DNA of 64,000 nucleotides. It comes from Halopiger xanaduensis SH-6 (GTDB lineage Archaea; Halobacteriota; Halobacteria; Halobacteriales; Natrialbaceae). The translations under genes and the position numbers were made by a program. Below the pieces are notes generated by a model. That model saw nothing but the letters and a program-made list of their open reading frames with translations. It was not told the DNA's origin and ran no database searches. The stretch is taken from NCBI RefSeq assembly GCF_000217715.1, contig NC_015666.1:322270-386269 (forward strand). The letters run 5' to 3'. Within the stretch, counting starts at the first letter, position 1. Every line of letters begins with the position of its first letter. Of the stretch, positions 5,758 through 62,635 are shown piece after piece.

Positions 5758-6666
5758 ATGGAGGGCCAGCGCCTGCTCGTGATGGGTGACAATCATGGTG
5801 ACACGGAGTCGCTTGAAACGGTGGTCGAAGAAACCGAGGGCGCCGAGTTTGACTACATCGTTCACACGGGGGACATCACGGACGCGCACCGGCGCGGTGT
5901 CGGAACCGCGGCCGACCAGCTTCGAGAACTCGAGCCCCTGTTCGCGGATCTAGCCGAGCGCGGCGAGTTGGTCTACATCTACGGCAACCGGGATAGCGAG
6001 CGCGGCGGCGACAAGCACGTCACCGAACGGTACGAGTTGTCTCCCGGTACCCGACTCCCAAAAGGTGGTGCCGTCAAGGTCGCCGGTCAGCGGTTTACGG
6101 CCGATCCCGACGATGTCGGCGACGACGACGTGCTGGTCACGCACGGCCAGCTCCCGGAGCCCTTCTACTCGTTCGACGGTCGAGCATACTTCTGCGGGCA
6201 CACGCACCGTGGCTGGCATCGAGGCCGGGCGCTCAACTCCGCCCATTTGAAGAAGGTGCGGAAGGGGTACTTGGGAGCCTACTTCATCGTCGAACTGGAT
6301 GGGGATGGCCTGCAGGTCGAATGCCGGGGAATCGACGAGTCGTGGACGGCGATCGAGTGCCCCGACCACAGCTGGTACAGGACGCAGTTCCAGCCCGAGA
6401 AGTTCGGCTGCCGCCTCTGCAAGTTCGGGTCAGCGGAGGCGCTTCGAGAGGTGGCGTGGACGGCGTACGCGTCTCACGTCGACGAGCCGGGCGAGGACGC
6501 AATCGACGCGACCGACCTCGTGTCCGGCGTCCTTGCGCTCCTTGACGGTGCGGACGACGCCGAGGAGCAGTTCCGCGCGTACCTTGATACCCTCTTGAAG
6601 CAGCCCGGCCCGCACGACCCGCTCCAGCCATCCGACGGTAACCCGACGACACTCGTCCCACGGTGA
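5758..6666 (+). CDS. Calcineurin-like metallophosphoesterase with C-terminal zinc site
   Basis: The 302-residue protein has all the metal-binding motifs of the calcineurin-like phosphoesterase fold. These are GDNHGD (Asp11, His13), GDITD (Asp39), GNRD (Asn77), THG (His129) and GHTH (His148, His150). It should hydrolyse phosphomonoesters or phosphodiesters such as nucleotides or nucleic acid ends, using two metal ions. After the catalytic domain there is a Cys-x2-His followed by Cys-x2-Cys (CPDH ... CRLC), a probable structural zinc site, and a helical tail. The ATG follows the stop of the preceding gene by one base, so the two are probably translationally coupled. The substrate is unknown. 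Confidence 0.85.
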   Translation: MEGQRLLVMGDNHGDTESLETVVEETEGAEFDYIVHTGDITDAHRRGVGTAADQLRELEPLFADLAERGELVYIYGNRDSERGGDKHVTERYELSPGTRLPKGGAVKVAGQRFTADPDDVGDDDVLVTHGQLPEPFYSFDGRAYFCGHTHRGWHRGRALNSAHLKKVRKGYLGAYFIVELDGDGLQVECRGIDESWTAIECPDHSWYRTQFQPEKFGCRLCKFGSAEALREVAWTAYASHVDEPGEDAIDATDLVSGVLALLDGADDAEEQFRAYLDTLLKQPGPHDPLQPSDGNPTTLVPR

Positions 6667-54903: not shown

Positions 54904-56283
54904 ATGACCACGAACACGGGTCCGAACGTCCTCGCGTTCGACGGCCGCATGGGTGCCAGCGGCGACATGCTCCTCGCCGCCCTGGTCGACGCCGGGGCCG
55001 ATCCCGACGCTCTCGAGGCGGTCGAAGCCACCCTCGAGATCGAGTACCGGATCGCCGAGACGGTCAAGTGCGGGATCGCGTCGACGACGGTCGACGTGGT
55101 GTTGACCGGTGAATCAGGTGACTCGAGCGGTCACGAACACGAGCACGACGAACACAGCCACCAGCACGACGGTCACGATCATTCGAGACACGAGCACGAT
55201 CACGGCCACGACGACCACAATCACGCGGACGGCCACTCGAGCGACGGCGACCACGACCACGTCCACGCCGAGGGTCACGGACCGCACCGCAGCTATCGGG
55301 AAGTCCGCGAGATCGTCGCGGACATGGCCCTCCCCGCCGCCGTCGAAGACGACGCGCTCGCGATCTTCAAACGGCTCGGCGAGGCCGAAGCCAGCGTCCA
55401 CGGCGAGACCCTAGAGGACATTCACTTCCACGAGGTCGGAGCCGACGACGCCATCGCGGACGTCGTCGGCGCGGCGGCGCTGGTCCACGACCTCGAGCCG
55501 GACCGGATCGTCACGACGCCGCTTTCGACCGGCGGCGGCACCGTCGGGATGAGCCACGGCGAGTACCCCGTCCCCACGCCGGCGGTGGTCGAAATCGCCC
55601 GGGAGGCCGACTGGTCGCTGCGCGGCGGGCCCGTCGACCGCGAACTGCTGACCCCGACCGGCGCGGCGATCCTCGCGCACTTCGCCGAGGGCGTCGACGA
55701 ACTCCCCTCGCTCGAGCTCGAGGCGTCGGGCTACGGCGCCGGCGGCTACGACCTCGATCCGCACCCGAACGTGCTCCGGGCGCTCGTCGGCCGAGGTGAC
55801 GGCTCGCTCGTGAAGGACGACATCGCCGTCCTCGAGACGAACCTCGACGATGCAACGCCGGAAGTGCTGGGCGGCCTGCAGGAGACGCTCTCGGACGCGG
55901 GCGCGCGAGACGTTTCGATTCTTCCGGCGACGATGAAGAAGTCCCGCCCGGGCCACCTCGTGAAGGTTATCTGCAAGCCCGAGGATCGGCAGCGCGTCGC
56001 TCGAGCGCTCGCCGAGGAGACGGGGACGCTCGGGGTTCGCGATGCGGGGGCGACACATCGGTGGATCGCACGGCGGGAGTTCGAGACGGTAGAGTTGGAA
56101 CTCGAGGGAGAGACCTACGAGGTGACCGTGAAAATCGCGAGTGACGCCGACGGCGAGGTTTACGACGTGAGTGCCGAGTACGAGGACGCGAAGGCGGTTG
56201 CTCGAGAAACCGAATTGTCGATTCGTGAGGTGATTCGGCGAGCGGAAGACCAGAGTCCGACAAATCGTAGAGACGAATTCTGA
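54904..56283 (+). CDS. larC: LarC-type nickel-insertion protein with His-rich region
   Basis: I chose the ATG at 54904 (459 residues); the frame upstream is not coding. The start AFDGRMGASGDMLLAAL carries the LarC signature (D-x-x-x-G-x-S-G-D-M). The protein has the family's C-terminal domains (VLETNLDDATPEVLGGLQET and MKKSRPGHLVKVICKPEDRQ). LarC inserts nickel into the pyridinium cofactor of lactate racemase (LarA) using CTP. Residues about 77-128 are a His/Asp-rich segment with more than 20 His residues, longer than in many homologues, probably for nickel storage. larA, larB and larE are not in this window. The last 560 bp are duplicated at 57540-58090. Confidence 0.9.
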   Translation: MTTNTGPNVLAFDGRMGASGDMLLAALVDAGADPDALEAVEATLEIEYRIAETVKCGIASTTVDVVLTGESGDSSGHEHEHDEHSHQHDGHDHSRHEHDHGHDDHNHADGHSSDGDHDHVHAEGHGPHRSYREVREIVADMALPAAVEDDALAIFKRLGEAEASVHGETLEDIHFHEVGADDAIADVVGAAALVHDLEPDRIVTTPLSTGGGTVGMSHGEYPVPTPAVVEIAREADWSLRGGPVDRELLTPTGAAILAHFAEGVDELPSLELEASGYGAGGYDLDPHPNVLRALVGRGDGSLVKDDIAVLETNLDDATPEVLGGLQETLSDAGARDVSILPATMKKSRPGHLVKVICKPEDRQRVARALAEETGTLGVRDAGATHRWIARREFETVELELEGETYEVTVKIASDADGEVYDVSAEYEDAKAVARETELSIREVIRRAEDQSPTNRRDEF

Positions 56284-56487
56284 GATAGAAATCACTCTAT
56301 TGATCGTTTTTGCCTTCCTGACGAAATCACGTACCGTGACTCCGCGGCGGAGGTTACGGTAACGAAGCAGAATACGGCGACAGTTGGATTACAAACGTAA
56401 TTTGACTTACCGACGCTCGAGGAGTTACGACTACCGAGCTACGTTATATCAAATAAATAATCAGGTGTTGGAAAGTGGCAGGACTAT

Positions 56488-57258
56488 TCAGAGAAGACCG
56501 TCGACGTCAAGGTCGAGGTCGAACTGCGCATCAAGGAAGTCCGATGCGTCCGAAGCATCATCGAAGGGACCGAATTGCTCACCGTCAACGATGACGAAGA
56601 CGCCAGCGGAAGTCTCGAATGCGGAGACATCCTCTTCACTGACACCGTCGTCGCCGTTAGTACCGTCGTCGCCGTTAGTACCGTCGTCGCCGTTAGTACC
56701 GTCGTCGCCGTCAGTTTCGTTCTCGTCGTCAGCACCGTCATCGGCGCCGAAGATGTTATCCTCGACGTCGATTTCCTGTTCGGGCTCGACGTCCTGCTCG
56801 GCGTCGACGCTCGAGTCAGCAGTCGCGTCGACGTCAGCAGCGTTGGTCTGGTCGACGTCCTGGTTCTGCGCGACTTCAGCGGTGGAGAACGCCGTCGCGC
56901 CAGTACCGGCACCGTTATCGGTAGCCGCAGCGCCGCCGGCACCGCCGCTCTTTTGTTTGGCGTGGTCCGCAGCGCCCGCAGCAGCGCCACCAGAGCCGGA
57001 GCCGCCAACGGCGAGCGCGTCACCGGACGTCGCGCTGGCCGTCTGCGCGTTGTTGTTGGTCTGGTCGACGCTCACTTCGGTCGTCGCGTCACCGGACTCG
57101 ATGTCCTGAATCGCCTCGACATCCTGGTCAAGGAGGTCTCCGTCGAAGAGATCGTCCGTGTCGGTATCGTTATCCTGTGCCGCTGCCGTTCCAGCGAGTG
57201 CCATCGCCGCAAGGGCGACCATCGCTACCGTCAGTGTGATTGCGAGTGCGCGCTTCAT
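56488..57258 (-). CDS. Secreted Q/N-repeat protein, curlin-like family (A1)
   Basis: I chose the ATG at 57258 (256 residues), which gives a Sec signal peptide (MKRALAITLTVAMVALAAMA ... TAAAQ) and probable cleavage after about residue 27. The mature protein has two family motifs, VDQTNNNAQ and NQDVDQTNAAD, separated by a Gly/Ala/Ser-rich spacer. Then come an Asp/Glu-rich part and four TNGDDG units (four 18-bp repeats), and a distinct C-terminal end (FVIVDGEQFGPFDDASDASD). It is paralogous to the protein at 58172-58816 and related to the large repeat protein at 59502. Probably secreted, extracellular or cell-surface; assembly into fibres is inference. 204 bp of non-coding DNA lie between it and larC. 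Confidence 0.75.
   Translation of the reverse strand: MKRALAITLTVAMVALAAMALAGTAAAQDNDTDTDDLFDGDLLDQDVEAIQDIESGDATTEVSVDQTNNNAQTASATSGDALAVGGSGSGGAAAGAADHAKQKSGGAGGAAATDNGAGTGATAFSTAEVAQNQDVDQTNAADVDATADSSVDAEQDVEPEQEIDVEDNIFGADDGADDENETDGDDGTNGDDGTNGDDGTNGDDGVSEEDVSAFETSAGVFVIVDGEQFGPFDDASDASDFLDAQFDLDLDVDGLL
56644..56715 (-). repeat. Four tandem 18-bp repeats inside the A1 gene
   Basis: The unit (plus strand ACCGTCGTCGCCGTTAGT) occurs at 56644, 56662, 56680 and 56698, the last with one changed base. In protein each unit is TNGDDG or NGDDGT. The paralogue at 58172 lacks them, so they arose or expanded after the duplication. They are in frame and variable in principle. Confidence 0.85.
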
Positions 57259-57539
57259 AGTTGAATTTTTGCTGTTTATGAGGCACGCATCACACGGGAG
57301 TACCGCTCCGCAACCGAGCTCGACCCTTTCCGCGGGCCGCCGCTCGTCACGGGAGGTACCAACCGACTCCCGACGCATCCCCTGTGACGCGTTGCCCAGT
57401 CGCTGCTCATCACGGAGTCCCACTTCAACCCGAACTACAGTTTCAGGGGAAGACTCGAATTAGAAGTGCTACAGCTGTTGATCTGTTTCTGCTGATGGAG
57501 ATTTCATTGTTCCTAATACTACACCTTCGAACGAGACGA

Positions 57540-58090
57540 GAACCGCCCGTCGCTCGAGATCGAGGCTCGAGCCACGGCGCCGACAGCTTCGACCTCGATC
57601 CACACCCAGACGTGCTCCGGGCGCTCGTCGGCCGGAACGAGAGGGGTGCTCGTGACCGACGACATCGCCGTCCTCGAGACGAACCTCGAGCCACGCGACG
57701 CCGAAAGTCATAGCCTACAGGACGAATTTATGGACGCGGGCGAGCGTGGCGTTTCGATCCTGCCGGCGATGATGAAGAAGTTCCGCCCTGGCGACCTCGT
57801 GAAGATCATCTGCAAACCCAGGCATCGCCAGCGCGTCGCTCGAGCGCTGACCGAGAAGACGGGACATTAGGTGTTCGTAATGCAGGGATCGGGGCGACGC
57901 ATCGATGGATTGCACAGCAAGAGTTCGAGACGGAGGGTTGGTACTCGACGGCGAAACCCACGAAGTGACTGTGAAATAGCGAGCGATGCCGACGGCGAGA
58001 TTTACGACGTCAGTGCCGAGTGCGAGGACCGAAGGTAGTTGCTCGAAAAGTCGATTTGTCGAATCGAAGTGTGATTCAACAGGCAGAAAC
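57540..58090 (+). pseudogene. larC 3' fragment, duplicated and decayed
   Basis: Read on the plus strand, the segment repeats larC from about codon 265 to the end: VTDDIAVLETNLEPRDAESH, MKKFRPGDLVKIICKPRHRQ and RVARALTEKTGH match the parent. Frames are broken by small indels around 57650, a stop at 57868-57870 (where the parent continues GTLGVRD) and another stop near 57976 (TAG, parent AAAATC). The fragment has no start and no N-terminal half. It marks the duplication that also copied the secreted-protein gene. Confidence 0.85.
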
Positions 58091-58171
58091 GACTGTACTC
58101 ACTTCCACTAGCTAGGACCCTCACCGCAAGTCAACACATCAAAAAATAAGCAGAACGAATATGGACCGGGT

Positions 58172-58816
58172 TTATCCTTCAGTTGCGTTCAGGTCGACGT
58201 CAGCATTGATCGCATCGACGATGTCAGCGATCGAGTCCTCGCTCAGGTCGACGGTCTCGTTACCGTTGTCAGTGCCGTCGTCGACACCGTCACCGGCGTT
58301 GACTTCGTTATCTTCGACTTCGACTTCCTGTTCGGGTTCGACGTTCTGCTCGGCGTCGACGCTCGAGTCCGCATTAGCGTCGATCTGCGCAGCGTTGGTC
58401 TGGTCGACGTCCTGGTTCTGCGCGACTTCAGCAGTGGAGAACGCCGTAGCGCCAGTGCTGGCACCGTTATCGGTAGCCGTAGCGCCGGCACCGCTACCGC
58501 TCTTGTACTTAGCGTGATCCGCGGCGCCCGCAGCGCCGGCACCGCCGCCGTTACCGGAGCTACCAGCGACCGCGTCACCGGACGTCGCGCTGGCCGTCTG
58601 CGCGTTGTTGTTGGTCTGGTCGACGCTCACTTCGGTCGTCGCGTCACCGGACTCGATGTCCTGCTCCGCATCGACGTCCTGATCGAGGAGGTCTCCGTCG
58701 AAGAGATCGTCGGTTTCGTTGTCTCCGTTGTCCTGTGCAGCTGCCGTTCCAGCGAGTGCCATCGCCGCAACGGCGATCATCGCTACCGTCAGTGTGATTG
58801 CGAGTGCGCGCTTCAT
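58172..58816 (-). CDS. Secreted Q/N-repeat protein, curlin-like family (A2)
   Basis: I chose the ATG at 58816 (214 residues). The signal peptide (MKRALAITLTVAMIAVAAMA) is nearly identical to the one in A1. The mature protein has the same two motifs VDQTNNNAQ and NQDVDQTNAAQ, the Gly/Ala-rich spacer with a DHAKYK segment, and an Asp/Glu-rich region. It ends in SEDSIADIVDAINADVDLNA, unlike A1. It lacks the TNGDDG units. The upstream 240 bp are nearly the same as for A1, so both probably share regulation. Probably secreted. Confidence 0.75.
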   Translation of the reverse strand: MKRALAITLTVAMIAVAAMALAGTAAAQDNGDNETDDLFDGDLLDQDVDAEQDIESGDATTEVSVDQTNNNAQTASATSGDAVAGSSGNGGGAGAAGAADHAKYKSGSGAGATATDNGASTGATAFSTAEVAQNQDVDQTNAAQIDANADSSVDAEQNVEPEQEVEVEDNEVNAGDGVDDGTDNGNETVDLSEDSIADIVDAINADVDLNATEG

Positions 58817-59343
58817 ATTGATGAGTTTCGTGTTTATGAGGCACGCATCACACGGGGGTACCAGCTCCGCAACGGAGCGTCGACCGCTATCCGCAGGCCG
58901 CCGCTCGTCGCGGGAGGTACCAACCGACTCCCGACGCATCCCCGCTGTGACGCGTTGCCCAGTCGCTGCTCATCACGGAGTTCCACTTCAACCCGGACCA
59001 CAGTTTCAGGGGAAGACTCGCATTAGAAGTTCTGCAACCGTTGATCTCTATCTGTTGGGTCGGCTTTCACTCGCTGCAACTGTCCCTCCCAATCGATACG
59101 ATCAGCTTAGCGAACCGTTCGTTCCTCGTTCCGGCAACGGCATCACGCGGTGCCGTCCCCGAAATACCGAGTATGAACTGCGAGGGTTTGCGACCGGCTT
59201 CCAGTAACCACGGCCTTTGCGCCGTGAAACAGTCCCCAATTTCGATACGTAGCCGGCGATTTCGAGACCTCGAGACCGTCAGTGACGGCTGTATAGCATT
59301 TGAGATGGGTTAGCACACCATCAGATCGAGCGGGCCGCGATCG

Positions 59344-59432
59344 AAGTTTCCCCCTTCCGGTCGTAAGTTCCACCCTTCGGAACGGTAGGTCGCTTCATAT
59401 TTGCCGAAACTGACAGATAACAAAGTCTGTCA
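59344..59432 (+). promoter_or_regulatory. Control region of the large curlin-like gene
   Basis: Two imperfect direct repeats (AAGTTTCCCCCTTCCGG at 59344-59360 and AAGTTCCACCCTTCGGA at 59365-59381) lie 21 bp apart, two turns of the helix. They are followed by TTCATATTTG at about 59394, a possible TATA element. Further on is a perfect palindrome (TGACAGA at 59411-59417, TCTGTCA at 59426-59432, spacer TAACAAAG). A leader of about 75 nt would follow. The layout suggests an activator site upstream and an operator or RNA structure downstream. The interval 59056-59340 holds no gene. Confidence 0.4.
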
Positions 59433-59501
59433 TCGGGATACGACGGTTCACGCCGTGGAGTTACAGAAAGGAAGACTCTCACGGTTCACGTCAAACGAAT
59501 C

Positions 59502-61052
59502 ATGACAAACACGACGACGATACGTTCACAGTGTACGACGGTTCTTATGGCATGTATAGTCGCCGTAGCGATGCTCTCGGTCGGCGTGCCGGCGGCCGCA
59601 GCCGCCGAAGACGCCGAGACTGAGGGCGACGGCAGCGCTGGTACGCCCTACGCGCTCGAGGACGACGAAGGCCTGTACCTGGTCTTCGGCGCCGAGCTGG
59701 GAGACATGACCCTCGAGGAGTACATCGAGGAGCACGCGTCCGGCGATCAGATGGACGACGTCGAGATCTCCCAGTACCAGGACGTCGACCAGGTCAACAT
59801 CAACCAGCAGGAGAACGCGACGTCGATCTCGATCGACGGCGGCGAGGCCACGGCGGTGCAGGAGGCCTCGCAGTACAACGATAACGAACAGTACGCGGAC
59901 GCGAACGCGGACAACACGCAGGCGGTCCAGACGGAGTTCGAGGACGTCGGCGAGGTCACGATCCTCATCGGCGACGGCGACGGCAAGTCGTTCGACGGCT
60001 GGGGCATCGCCGACAAGAAGGGCCACAAGCCCGAGATCGACAACGCCGACCAGACGGCCGAAGCCGAAGTGACGCAGGTCCAGGAAGTTGCCCAGCTCAA
60101 CTACAACGAGCAGAACATCGCGTTCGCGATCGCGGAGAACGGCAGCGAAGCGACCGCGCTCCAGCAGTCCCAGCAGTCCAACGAGAACCTGCAACAGGGC
60201 GTCGCGAACGCGACCAACGTCTACACGGGCAACGGTCAGTTCGAGGACCAGGCCGCAGAAGCGGCGGTCCAGCAGGGCCAGGCCGTCAGCCAGGAGAACA
60301 TCAACCAGCAGGACGGCGCCGTTGCGATCGCCGTCGGCAACGACAGCGTCGCGACCGCGATCCAGATGACGGAGCAGACCAACCTCAACGAACAGATCGG
60401 CAACGCGACCGCCGAAAACGTCATCCAGTCGCTCGGCGGCATGAACGTCGCCACGGCCGGTCTCGACGACGACACCCAGGTCCTCGACACCGAGCGCTCG
60501 GTCGAGACGCTGCTCGCCGACAAGGAGGGCGACCACCACAAGAAGAGCGACGAGAAGGTCCAGACGGCCACCTCCGAAGTGGCCCAGAACCAGACCGCCG
60601 AGCAGATGAACGTCAACCTGCAGAACACGGCGCTGGCGCTCGCGACCAACGAGAGCAACGCCACCGCCGTCCAGTTGGCCTACCAGTCCAACATCAACTC
60701 GCAGGTCGGCGCCGCCGACGCGCTGAACGTCTACGCCGGCCCGAGCCACCAGTACGAGAACGCGATCGTGACCTCGACCACGAGCGTGACCGTTGGCGGC
60801 GAAGACGTCGACGGTATCGAAGGGATCTCGTACGACAGCGACGCGCAGCAGACGAACGATCCCCAGCAGCACGCGAGCGCCCAGATCGCGCAGGTGCAGT
60901 TCATCACGCAGGAGAACGTCAACGAGCAGCACGCCGCCATCGCCGTAGCCGAAAACGGAGATGACGCCGACGCTGCGCAGGTGACCATGCAGGAGAACGA
61001 GAACGTCCAGTTCGGGTCCGTCGCCGCGACGAACCTCTGGGCTGCAGCGTAA
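59502..61052 (+). CDS. Large secreted protein with ten curlin-like Q/N repeats (B)
   Basis: The 516-residue protein begins with a signal peptide (VLMACIVAVAMLSVGVPAAA, cleavage near residue 35) and an acidic N-terminal part. Then five repeats of 53-57 residues follow (about 88-140, 189-242, 254-310, 358-413, 459-515). Each holds two half-motifs of the form Q-x3-Q-x-N-x-N-x-Q, 27 or 28 residues apart, for example QTAEQMNVNLQ and QLAYQSNINSQ. Between them lie A-x-A-I/L-A-type strands. Spacers of variable, partly charged sequence separate repeats 1-2 and 3-4. The alternating Gln/Asn ladder resembles CsgA curlin repeats and suggests a beta-solenoid that could polymerise. No sortase or membrane anchor is visible, so it is probably extracellular. 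Confidence 0.8.
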   Translation: MTNTTTIRSQCTTVLMACIVAVAMLSVGVPAAAAAEDAETEGDGSAGTPYALEDDEGLYLVFGAELGDMTLEEYIEEHASGDQMDDVEISQYQDVDQVNINQQENATSISIDGGEATAVQEASQYNDNEQYADANADNTQAVQTEFEDVGEVTILIGDGDGKSFDGWGIADKKGHKPEIDNADQTAEAEVTQVQEVAQLNYNEQNIAFAIAENGSEATALQQSQQSNENLQQGVANATNVYTGNGQFEDQAAEAAVQQGQAVSQENINQQDGAVAIAVGNDSVATAIQMTEQTNLNEQIGNATAENVIQSLGGMNVATAGLDDDTQVLDTERSVETLLADKEGDHHKKSDEKVQTATSEVAQNQTAEQMNVNLQNTALALATNESNATAVQLAYQSNINSQVGAADALNVYAGPSHQYENAIVTSTTSVTVGGEDVDGIEGISYDSDAQQTNDPQQHASAQIAQVQFITQENVNEQHAAIAVAENGDDADAAQVTMQENENVQFGSVAATNLWAAA

Positions 61053-61300: not shown

Positions 61301-61648
61301 TCAGTCGAACATCTCGCCGACGTTCGCGAGCGTCTGGTCGACGATGTCGGTGCCGAAGTCGGTGTCGATGAAGTCGTCACCGCCGTCGACGGCGTCGCCG
61401 TCCTCGTCAGATAGGTCGCCGGTTCCGTCCGTCGCAAATGACGTCTCGGTCTCCGTCACACTCTCCTCGATCGTCTGCGAACTCTCGTTTTGAACCGATA
61501 CGTTCTCGGTTGCTTCGCCGGTCTCGACCGACTCCGAGACCGATTCGCTTTCCTGTGCTGTTGCCGCTCCGATGCCGAAGGTCATCGCCAGCAATCCGAC
61601 GACGACCATCGCCGTAAGTAACCGCTGACCGATCTTCCGTCCAATCAT
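61301..61648 (-). CDS. Small secreted acidic protein, diverged family member (C)
   Basis: The 115-residue protein has a signal peptide (LLTAMVVVGLLAMTFGIGAA, cleavage near TAQ). The mature part starts with a segment (ETGEATENVSVQNESSQT) that can be aligned with SGDATTEVSVDQTNNNAQ of A1/A2, but without the Gln/Asn ladder. The rest is Asp/Glu/Thr-rich, with GDDFIDTDFGTDIVDQTLAN at the end. It is convergent with the large repeat gene (about 248 bp of non-coding DNA between) and may be an accessory such as a capping or chaperone-like protein. That role is inference. Confidence 0.6.
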   Translation of the reverse strand: MIGRKIGQRLLTAMVVVGLLAMTFGIGAATAQESESVSESVETGEATENVSVQNESSQTIEESVTETETSFATDGTGDLSDEDGDAVDGGDDFIDTDFGTDIVDQTLANVGEMFD

Positions 61649-61671: not shown

Positions 61672-62014
61672 CGGCGATTCACCGGAAGCGGGAATAAACG
61701 AAGGCAATCGTTTGCAAGCCAAACACGCGATTGCGACGCTGTAGTCGAAACTTTGCACGGCGATCGAGTCGCCGTCCGATCGTGTGACCGGAGTGAAAGA
61801 TCGACGGCTGGCAGCGCGGTAAGGGGAGCCAAATCGGTTGCCGATCGCGGTTCCCACGCGTGATTACACGTCGCACCGGCGCGTTCTCGCGCCCGCGCTC
61901 GAGGCGTCCCAAGCCCCAAGCGGCGACGCCGACCCGGCCGACCGTCCGTCGGGAGGCGTGACGGTCACGAACCGATGAAAAAGTGGTATTACCCTCGGTG
62001 TGGCCCCTCCGGAT

Positions 62015-62635
62015 ATGGACCGCCGCACGCTCGTTCGGATCGCACCCGGCGTCGGACTCGGATTCCTCGCGGGCTGTCTCGGCGCCGCCGACGACTCGTC
62101 GGACGGCGACGGCGAGACCGCGGGGAACGAAACGGCGGAGACGGAAAGCGAGACGGGCACAGAGACCGCGAATGAGACTGAAACGGACGGGGGCGACGAC
62201 GTGCTCGAGGACGACGCGGAACTGACTTTCGAGACGCTCGAGGTCGGTCCGTTCGAGGCGATTACCACGACGGCGCTCGACGACTCGGCTGACAAAGGGG
62301 ACGGTGAGAAGGCGGCCGACGAGGAGCCGGTCGACGAGGGGGCGACCGTCTACCACCGCATCACGATCGAGAACGCGTCGAATCGGGATCGGGAGCTCTC
62401 GATTCGAATCGATCGCGACGGGACCACCGTCCTCGAGGGAACGAACGAACTGTCCCCCGAGACGGCCCTCGAGATCGTCATCGGGGAGCCGGGAACCTAC
62501 GAGACGACGCTCGAGGCCGGCGGGATCCGAAACACGTCGTCGATCTCGCGGTCGGGAACGCCCTGCGAGGAGTCGCGGACGGTCGTCTCGTTTACCGACG
62601 GCGGGATCGAGACGAACACGACGACGTCCTGTTGA
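62015..62635 (+). CDS. Lipoprotein with twin-arginine-type start
   Basis: I chose the ATG at 62015 (206 residues); an in-frame GTG at 62000 is less likely. The N terminus DRRTLVRIAPGVGLGFLAGC has the RR pair, a hydrophobic stretch and a lipobox with Cys21, so the protein should be lipid-anchored outside the cell. Residues 25-70 are a Glu/Thr/Ser/Asp-rich linker. The C-terminal about 100 residues form a beta-rich domain (YHRITIENASNRDRELSIRI) with two Cys residues near the end. No function is recognised. The 366 bp before it (61649-62014) hold the palindrome and no other gene. Confidence 0.75.
   Translation: MDRRTLVRIAPGVGLGFLAGCLGAADDSSDGDGETAGNETAETESETGTETANETETDGGDDVLEDDAELTFETLEVGPFEAITTTALDDSADKGDGEKAADEEPVDEGATVYHRITIENASNRDRELSIRIDRDGTTVLEGTNELSPETALEIVIGEPGTYETTLEAGGIRNTSSISRSGTPCEESRTVVSFTDGGIETNTTTSC

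Follow-up and report, generated by a model that had tools for sequence, protein, structure and literature searches.

Tandem copies of part of larC, a small secreted gene and its conserved, putatively folded leader in Halopiger xanaduensis

Stem loops in the 5′ untranslated region (5′-UTR) of a haloarchaeal message have been reported by Brenneis and Soppa (2009, PMC2636863) to be necessary for translational regulation. For extracellular material, a study on Haloferax volcanii describes a biofilm matrix that is positive for Congo red and thioflavin T, with HVO_1403 as the single candidate gene named there, as a potential one only (PMC4180959). We focus here on a locus of Halopiger xanaduensis SH-6 in which a small secreted gene, the leader upstream of it and the 3′ part of the neighbouring larC gene occur twice in tandem. 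The locus lies in a 64,000-nucleotide (nt) stretch of contig NC_015666.1 (positions 322,270 to 386,269, forward strand; 65.0% G+C), which was analysed as a whole and is called the window below. The reading we favour, with moderate confidence, is a tandem cassette duplication that predates a species split, with a neutral larC passenger, secreted genes that were selected and converted, a cis-acting RNA leader and a shared extracellular assembly.

The described systems resemble this locus in part. The structured 5′-UTRs of PMC2636863 share with it stem loops that affect translation; the window leader differs in having one predicted closing stem over the whole leader, in recurring across genera and in belonging to one gene family. 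That report thus makes an RNA reading of the leader plausible, without being a test of it. The secreted proteins are similar to the curli subunits CsgA and CsgB (PMC3521004) in their regularly spaced repeats of glutamine (Q) and asparagine (N) and in the adjacency of small and large relatives; the motif here, on the other hand, is Q-x-N-x-N-x-Q where that of curli is QxGx2N, and no solved relative is found by sequence. Membership of the curlin family was considered and rejected, as 19 orthologs hold one or two QxGxxN per protein against nine or ten Q.N.N.Q, with no Pfam curlin match. The amyloid-like sheath protein of Methanospirillum hungatei, summarised in PMC10593813 as archaeal, extracellular and built of beta arches, offers a conceptual likeness only. 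The Haloferax volcanii matrix is likewise haloarchaeal extracellular material, although from a different haloarchaeal family and likened by its staining description only. Among the matches listed from the open-licence PMC literature (titles and abstract openings), there was no description of the leader or of these genes.

The duplicated unit and its larC passenger

Each unit begins with a larC 3′ part on the forward strand; next, on the reverse strand, come a small secreted gene and the region upstream of it. The components are as follows.

54904–56283, forward strand: intact larC, nickel pincer cofactor biosynthesis (Pfam Ni_insertion, expect value (E) 1.7e-133; NCBIfam LarC1, 1.8e-58, and LarC2, 3.6e-37)
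56488–57258, reverse strand: small secreted Q/N protein, copy 1, 256 amino acids, with DDGTNG repeats and a genome-specific C-terminal tail (from open reading frame, alignment and tail search)
57495–57545, no strand: duplication junction between the copy 1 upstream region and the copy 2 larC piece; its sequence recurs in both junctions of a sister species
57546–58077, forward strand: decayed larC fragment (pseudogene) of copy 2, with codon-neutral changes
58172–58816, reverse strand: small secreted Q/N protein, copy 2, 214 amino acids (open reading frame; nonsynonymous divergence (dN) 0.147 and synonymous divergence (dS) 0.414 against copy 1)

A BLASTN comparison of the region with the window pairs 55704–56236 with 57546–58077 (80.5% identity over 543 columns, E 1e-132) and 56724–57494 with 58276–59057 (87.4% over 787 columns, E 0). 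The two spans, 55704–57494 (copy 1) and 57546–59057 (copy 2), are colinear, in direct orientation and joined at a junction, as in a tandem segmental duplication. A preliminary description of the locus had proposed that a segmental duplication copied the secreted gene together with the end of larC, in identical order and orientation, and both matches bear this out; similarity reaches far past the signal peptide, into the larC part as well as the gene and its upstream region. The noncoding upstream region belongs to the unit, being 88.5% identical across 235 positions; a coding role for it was dismissed by eye, since the two copies differ by indels that disrupt every frame they might share. Within the organism's own genome (4,355,268 bases in four contigs), only a 50-base piece matches beyond the two units. 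Tandem duplicates are common, and the duplication itself is an ordinary kind of event.

Similarity to larC extends from about codon 267 to codon 444 of 459, with the extreme 3′ end outside, and 55704–56236 of the intact gene is the counterpart of the copy 2 piece. Changes in the copy 2 piece were counted at sites where the larC genes of H. xanaduensis and of a sister species (L015) agree, these two genomes making up the genus comparison throughout. The copy 2 piece has changed at 25 of 164, 20 of 169 and 20 of 118 sites at codon positions 1, 2 and 3, against 1 of 140, 3 of 152 and 16 of 114 for changes unique to the intact window gene. Nine indel runs separate the piece from larC, and a codon-by-codon alignment that keeps the larC frame across the gaps contains zero nonsense substitutions; the stops therefore stem from frameshifts. 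The frameshifts that the preliminary description had seen in this part are thus real, while the two stops it counted are by-products of them and no independent nonsense changes. With substitution neutral to codon position and indels that break the frame, the copy 2 larC piece is a passenger that decays neutrally. As a separate observation, another locus, L112, contains at 5763–5981 a piece of the larC C-terminus (60% identity), close to a small secreted gene; a full larC was not seen within that stretch, and the fragment is possibly an independent larC loss or relic.

Age of the duplication and maintenance of the secreted genes

The two secreted genes each remain a complete open frame, their signal peptides are nearly identical and, as had been claimed for the second copy, the upstream region is conserved. 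Their dN/dS of 0.36 is set against the codon-neutral changes of the larC piece, and the secreted genes are under purifying selection. In the sister species the order is intact larC, gene, larC piece, shortened gene, larC piece, gene, and hence three units; the three copies show dN/dS of 0.26–0.34 among themselves. The sequence joining the upstream region to the larC piece is recognisably one and the same at the junction in the window and at the two junctions of the sister species, so that a duplication predates the species split. Informative sites were counted over four sequences, both window copies and the full-length pair from the sister species, leaving out the shortened middle copy. In the coding region the copies group by species at 60 sites, by position at 8 and crosswise at 6, whereas in the upstream region the corresponding counts are 2, 10 and 2. 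The coding regions have thus been homogenised within species after the split, the pattern of concerted evolution, in which paralogs group by species and the duplication is older than the species, here for two species compared.

The closeness of the coding regions within each species, and the general frequency of tandem duplicates, could also be taken to mean that the duplication is recent and confined to this species, copy 2 being open for want of time. We find this very improbable: the sister species shares the junction; across species, the upstream regions cluster by position at 10 sites against 2; and the larC piece is 19.5% diverged with its nine indel runs, yet the gene is open. The site patterns are those expected of gene conversion following an older duplication, and what had been described as differential decay is partly homogenisation. 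The earlier proposal that differential decay reflects selection on the second gene thus holds for the constraint and for the neutral decay of larC, but the lower divergence of the gene is due in part to conversion. Two points weigh against this account. First of all, the argument for gene conversion rests on one comparison, between two species of the genus. Second, the small genes have a dS between species of 0.49–0.66, which exceeds the 0.18–0.39 of neighbouring genes (larC 0.39, the large neighbour 0.20, cdc48 0.18) and is unexplained.

Homogenisation within species is strong, and the middle sister copy has lost about 90 residues, both of which would suit a second copy that is kept passively, with conversion alone holding its frame open and no function of its own. 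This seems unlikely, as the shortened sister copy is still open with a dN/dS of 0.26 to its paralogs, and other genera also have the small gene in two or three tandem copies, between which no larC piece was detected. The shortened gene itself (L015, 8339–8665) carries an in-frame deletion that fuses the signal peptide to the second motif. In the reading we favour, a tandem duplication before the split would have copied the promoter-like box, the folded 5′ leader, the small Q/N-rich secreted gene and the adjacent larC 3′ part; the larC piece would have been carried along to decay neutrally, the secreted genes would have stayed open under purifying selection and been homogenised through gene conversion, and unequal exchange between like units may have given rise to the third unit in the sister species.

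The C-termini of the two secreted proteins differ. The last 53 amino acids of copy 1 find a match in one of 125 genomes of the family (Natrialbaceae), the window's own, and the copy 2 tail resembles, by eye, the sister-species tails. Diversification of the C-termini after duplication, as first suggested, is thus correct in that the tails differ, but the novelty lies in copy 1, beside the intact larC, and not in the sister-like copy 2. An 18-bp tandem repeat, encoding DDGTNG, occupies 56644–56728 in gene 1, directly before the genome-specific tail.

The conserved leader of the small genes

Upstream of each small gene lie a promoter-like box and a putatively folded leader.

57417–57444, reverse strand: promoter-like box GAAACTG...GGGTTGAAGT upstream of the copy 1 leader, conserved in most homologs; putative function
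57256–57403, reverse strand: predicted folded 5′ leader, copy 1, ATG included; 5′ arm about 57397–57383, 3′ arm about 57294–57282 (model R1, 109 bits; fold −68.2 kcal/mol, z −3.37)
58980–59007, reverse strand: promoter-like box, copy 2, conserved in most homologs; putative function
58814–58966, reverse strand: predicted folded 5′ leader, copy 2, ATG included; 5′ arm about 58960–58946, 3′ arm about 58852–58840 (model R1, 111.1 bits; fold −72.1 kcal/mol, z −3.02)

In other genera, the regions upstream of homologs contain a promoter-like box of roughly GAAAC[CT]GT...CGGGTTCAAGT or CGGGTATAAGT, a block GGGCAACGCGTCACA and, right before the ATG, a block TGTGATGCGTGCC. The blocks GGGCAACGCGTCACA and TGTGATGCGTGCC are reverse complements with one bulge, and the stem between them is the sole structure that RNAalifold predicts from 20 leaders; single-sequence folds close it in 12 of 12 leaders (z −1.9 to −6.1). 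Of 44 minimum-energy leader folds, 43 contain the closed stem, compared with 246 of 880 for dinucleotide shuffles (28%); the final 12 nt, of which the AUG is part, have an unpaired fraction of 0.886, against 0.441 in shuffles. Pairing is kept with a shifted bulge in some groups (e.g. L067, L094, L098). The leader may be transcribed from just before the 5′ arm.

R1 is a covariance model of 13 pairs whose training set includes both window leaders. Three upstream regions (L068, L003b, L018) were left out by eye before leader alignment, and six badly aligned leaders out of 26 (three of L062, and L066a, L067 and L003a) were left out of the MAFFT alignment of 20, A2; R1 recovers five of these six at E ≤ 5.1e-5 and L066a at 0.007. 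R1 finds between one and three elements in each of 48 of the 125 family genomes, a number that includes the genomes of the training sequences, and in the own genome it matches the two cassettes only. With a second model, R2, 46 of the order's 392 genomes have a match, 45 from within the family; the single one outside it (G132, partial, E 0.0028) was taken as chance. A small protein that begins with a signal-peptide-like segment follows 46 of the 47 elements examined; in L105, the remaining one, the ATG is out of register with the end of the element. The four hits in Rfam were weak, scoring far under the gathering threshold, and lay outside both leaders.

In the model-fitted alignment of the 44 leaders, A3, eight cells are changed on both sides of the stem against 2.1 in shuffles, with a covariation score of 0.100 against 0.078 (standard deviation 0.005), and none of 500 shuffles reaches either value. 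We regard the covariation of the leader as suggestive, not settled. Several points weigh against an RNA leader of this kind. First of all, A3 was fitted to the covariance model, which favours structure, and in A2 covariation is not above shuffles, 77–81 of 500 being as high. Second, both arms are strongly conserved in sequence, which is compatible with a constraint on DNA or on protein binding, and the stem of the L092 leader is open in its minimum-energy fold. Third, the promoter-like box and the leader 5′ end are both putative, and the R1 model contains the ATG, so that the position before it is partly built in. Finally, R1 has no leader match in 77 of the 125 family genomes.

The same conservation of both arms, together with the invariance of 4 of the 13 pairs in the first 20 sequences, where covariation does not exceed shuffles, would fit a DNA element, a paired operator or binding sites, in place of an RNA structure. 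We consider this improbable. The arms are downstream of the promoter-like box and hence on the transcript side, and the distance between them varies from about 20 to about 110 nt; moreover, pairing in some groups survives two-sided changes or a shift of the bulge, and the AUG region stays unpaired. A tally of spacer lengths covered 38 of the 44 leaders, the others not fitting the pattern used to parse them. The leader is most likely, in our preferred reading, a cis-acting RNA, whose first nucleotides would pair with those ending about 10–44 nt before the AUG to form one rod. The closed rod would shield the 5′ end of the message from decay, and the AUG and the A-rich stretch preceding it would be left single-stranded for ribosome entry.

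The large neighbour and the meaning of the cassette

The usual neighbour of the small genes is a larger secreted protein.

59502–61052, forward strand: large secreted protein, 516 amino acids, with ten Q-x-N-x-N-x-Q motifs in five pairs (motif count)

Shuffles of the large protein hold 0.046 such motifs where ten are observed, and each small protein has one Q-x-N-x-N-x-Q and one Q-x-Q-x3-Q-x-N. A comparison of the small and large family profiles aligns them across a K/H-rich linker (E 2.3e-4). In 33 leader-bearing loci including the window, covered by stretches of 8.6–18 kb outside which a gene may fall, the large gene occurs in 28, cdc48 in 29 and a long larC match in 24. Where the long larC match is missing (9 of 33), the cassette adjoins the large gene in eight of the nine loci, and it is therefore independent of larC. 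The large family is present in 87 of the order's 392 genomes, including 13 from other families. Nine plasmid records contain relatives, seven annotated as hypothetical and two as PGF-CTERM sorting domain-containing, an annotation that suggests a cell-surface location; for the small protein, plasmid records yielded no match. Pfam and NCBIfam gave no match worth naming for either protein, and no solved structure was matched in a profile search at E values up to 1. Sharing Q/N motifs, the small and large proteins probably contribute to one extracellular assembly, for which additional gene copies would supply more of the small subunit or more variants of it. Against this stand the modest profile match between them (probability 45%) and the AlphaFold models of both, which are unusable (mean predicted local distance difference test scores of 29.6 and 48.4).

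A promoter motif in common with the large gene was considered and rejected, as a GAAACTG-like sequence precedes only 2 of 22 large genes, those of the window and the sister species. The large gene has an upstream block of its own (59377–59501), strongly conserved over 20 aligned loci, with a core GATAACAAAG often flanked by TGACAGA and TCTGTCA and then followed by GGTTCACGCCGTGGAG; its consensus fold is weak (−4.9 kcal/mol, 20 sequences). In the sister-species genome, a further protein (L016, 6725–7786) has a twin-arginine-like N-terminus and Asp/Gly repeats, followed by a related stretch, SGDANVSVDVSQSSSNVQTGEAESGDA. Two small open reading frames near the large gene, 61301–61648 and 62000–62635, have conserved counterparts in the sister species (dN/dS 0.46 and 0.43) and occur at several other loci.

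The duplication serves as a natural experiment, in which a neutral larC passenger lies beside selected and converted sequence of equal age. It led to a conserved, putatively folded leader in a group with many leaderless transcripts and to a family of secreted proteins with Q/N repeats that is both widespread and uncharacterised, and it is the leader and the protein family, rather than the duplication, that are the part worth following. We suggest, tentatively and as a possibility we hold with less than even confidence, that the leader represents a new class of archaeal cis-regulatory RNA, so far from one haloarchaeal family, which would link the 5′ end of the message to the region before the start codon and set the output of a Q/N-ladder system of surface fibres, as yet undescribed, with a repeatedly amplified and homogenised small-subunit cassette. 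Leader and protein family thus bear on how haloarchaea control the output of their messages and on what their extracellular material is composed of.

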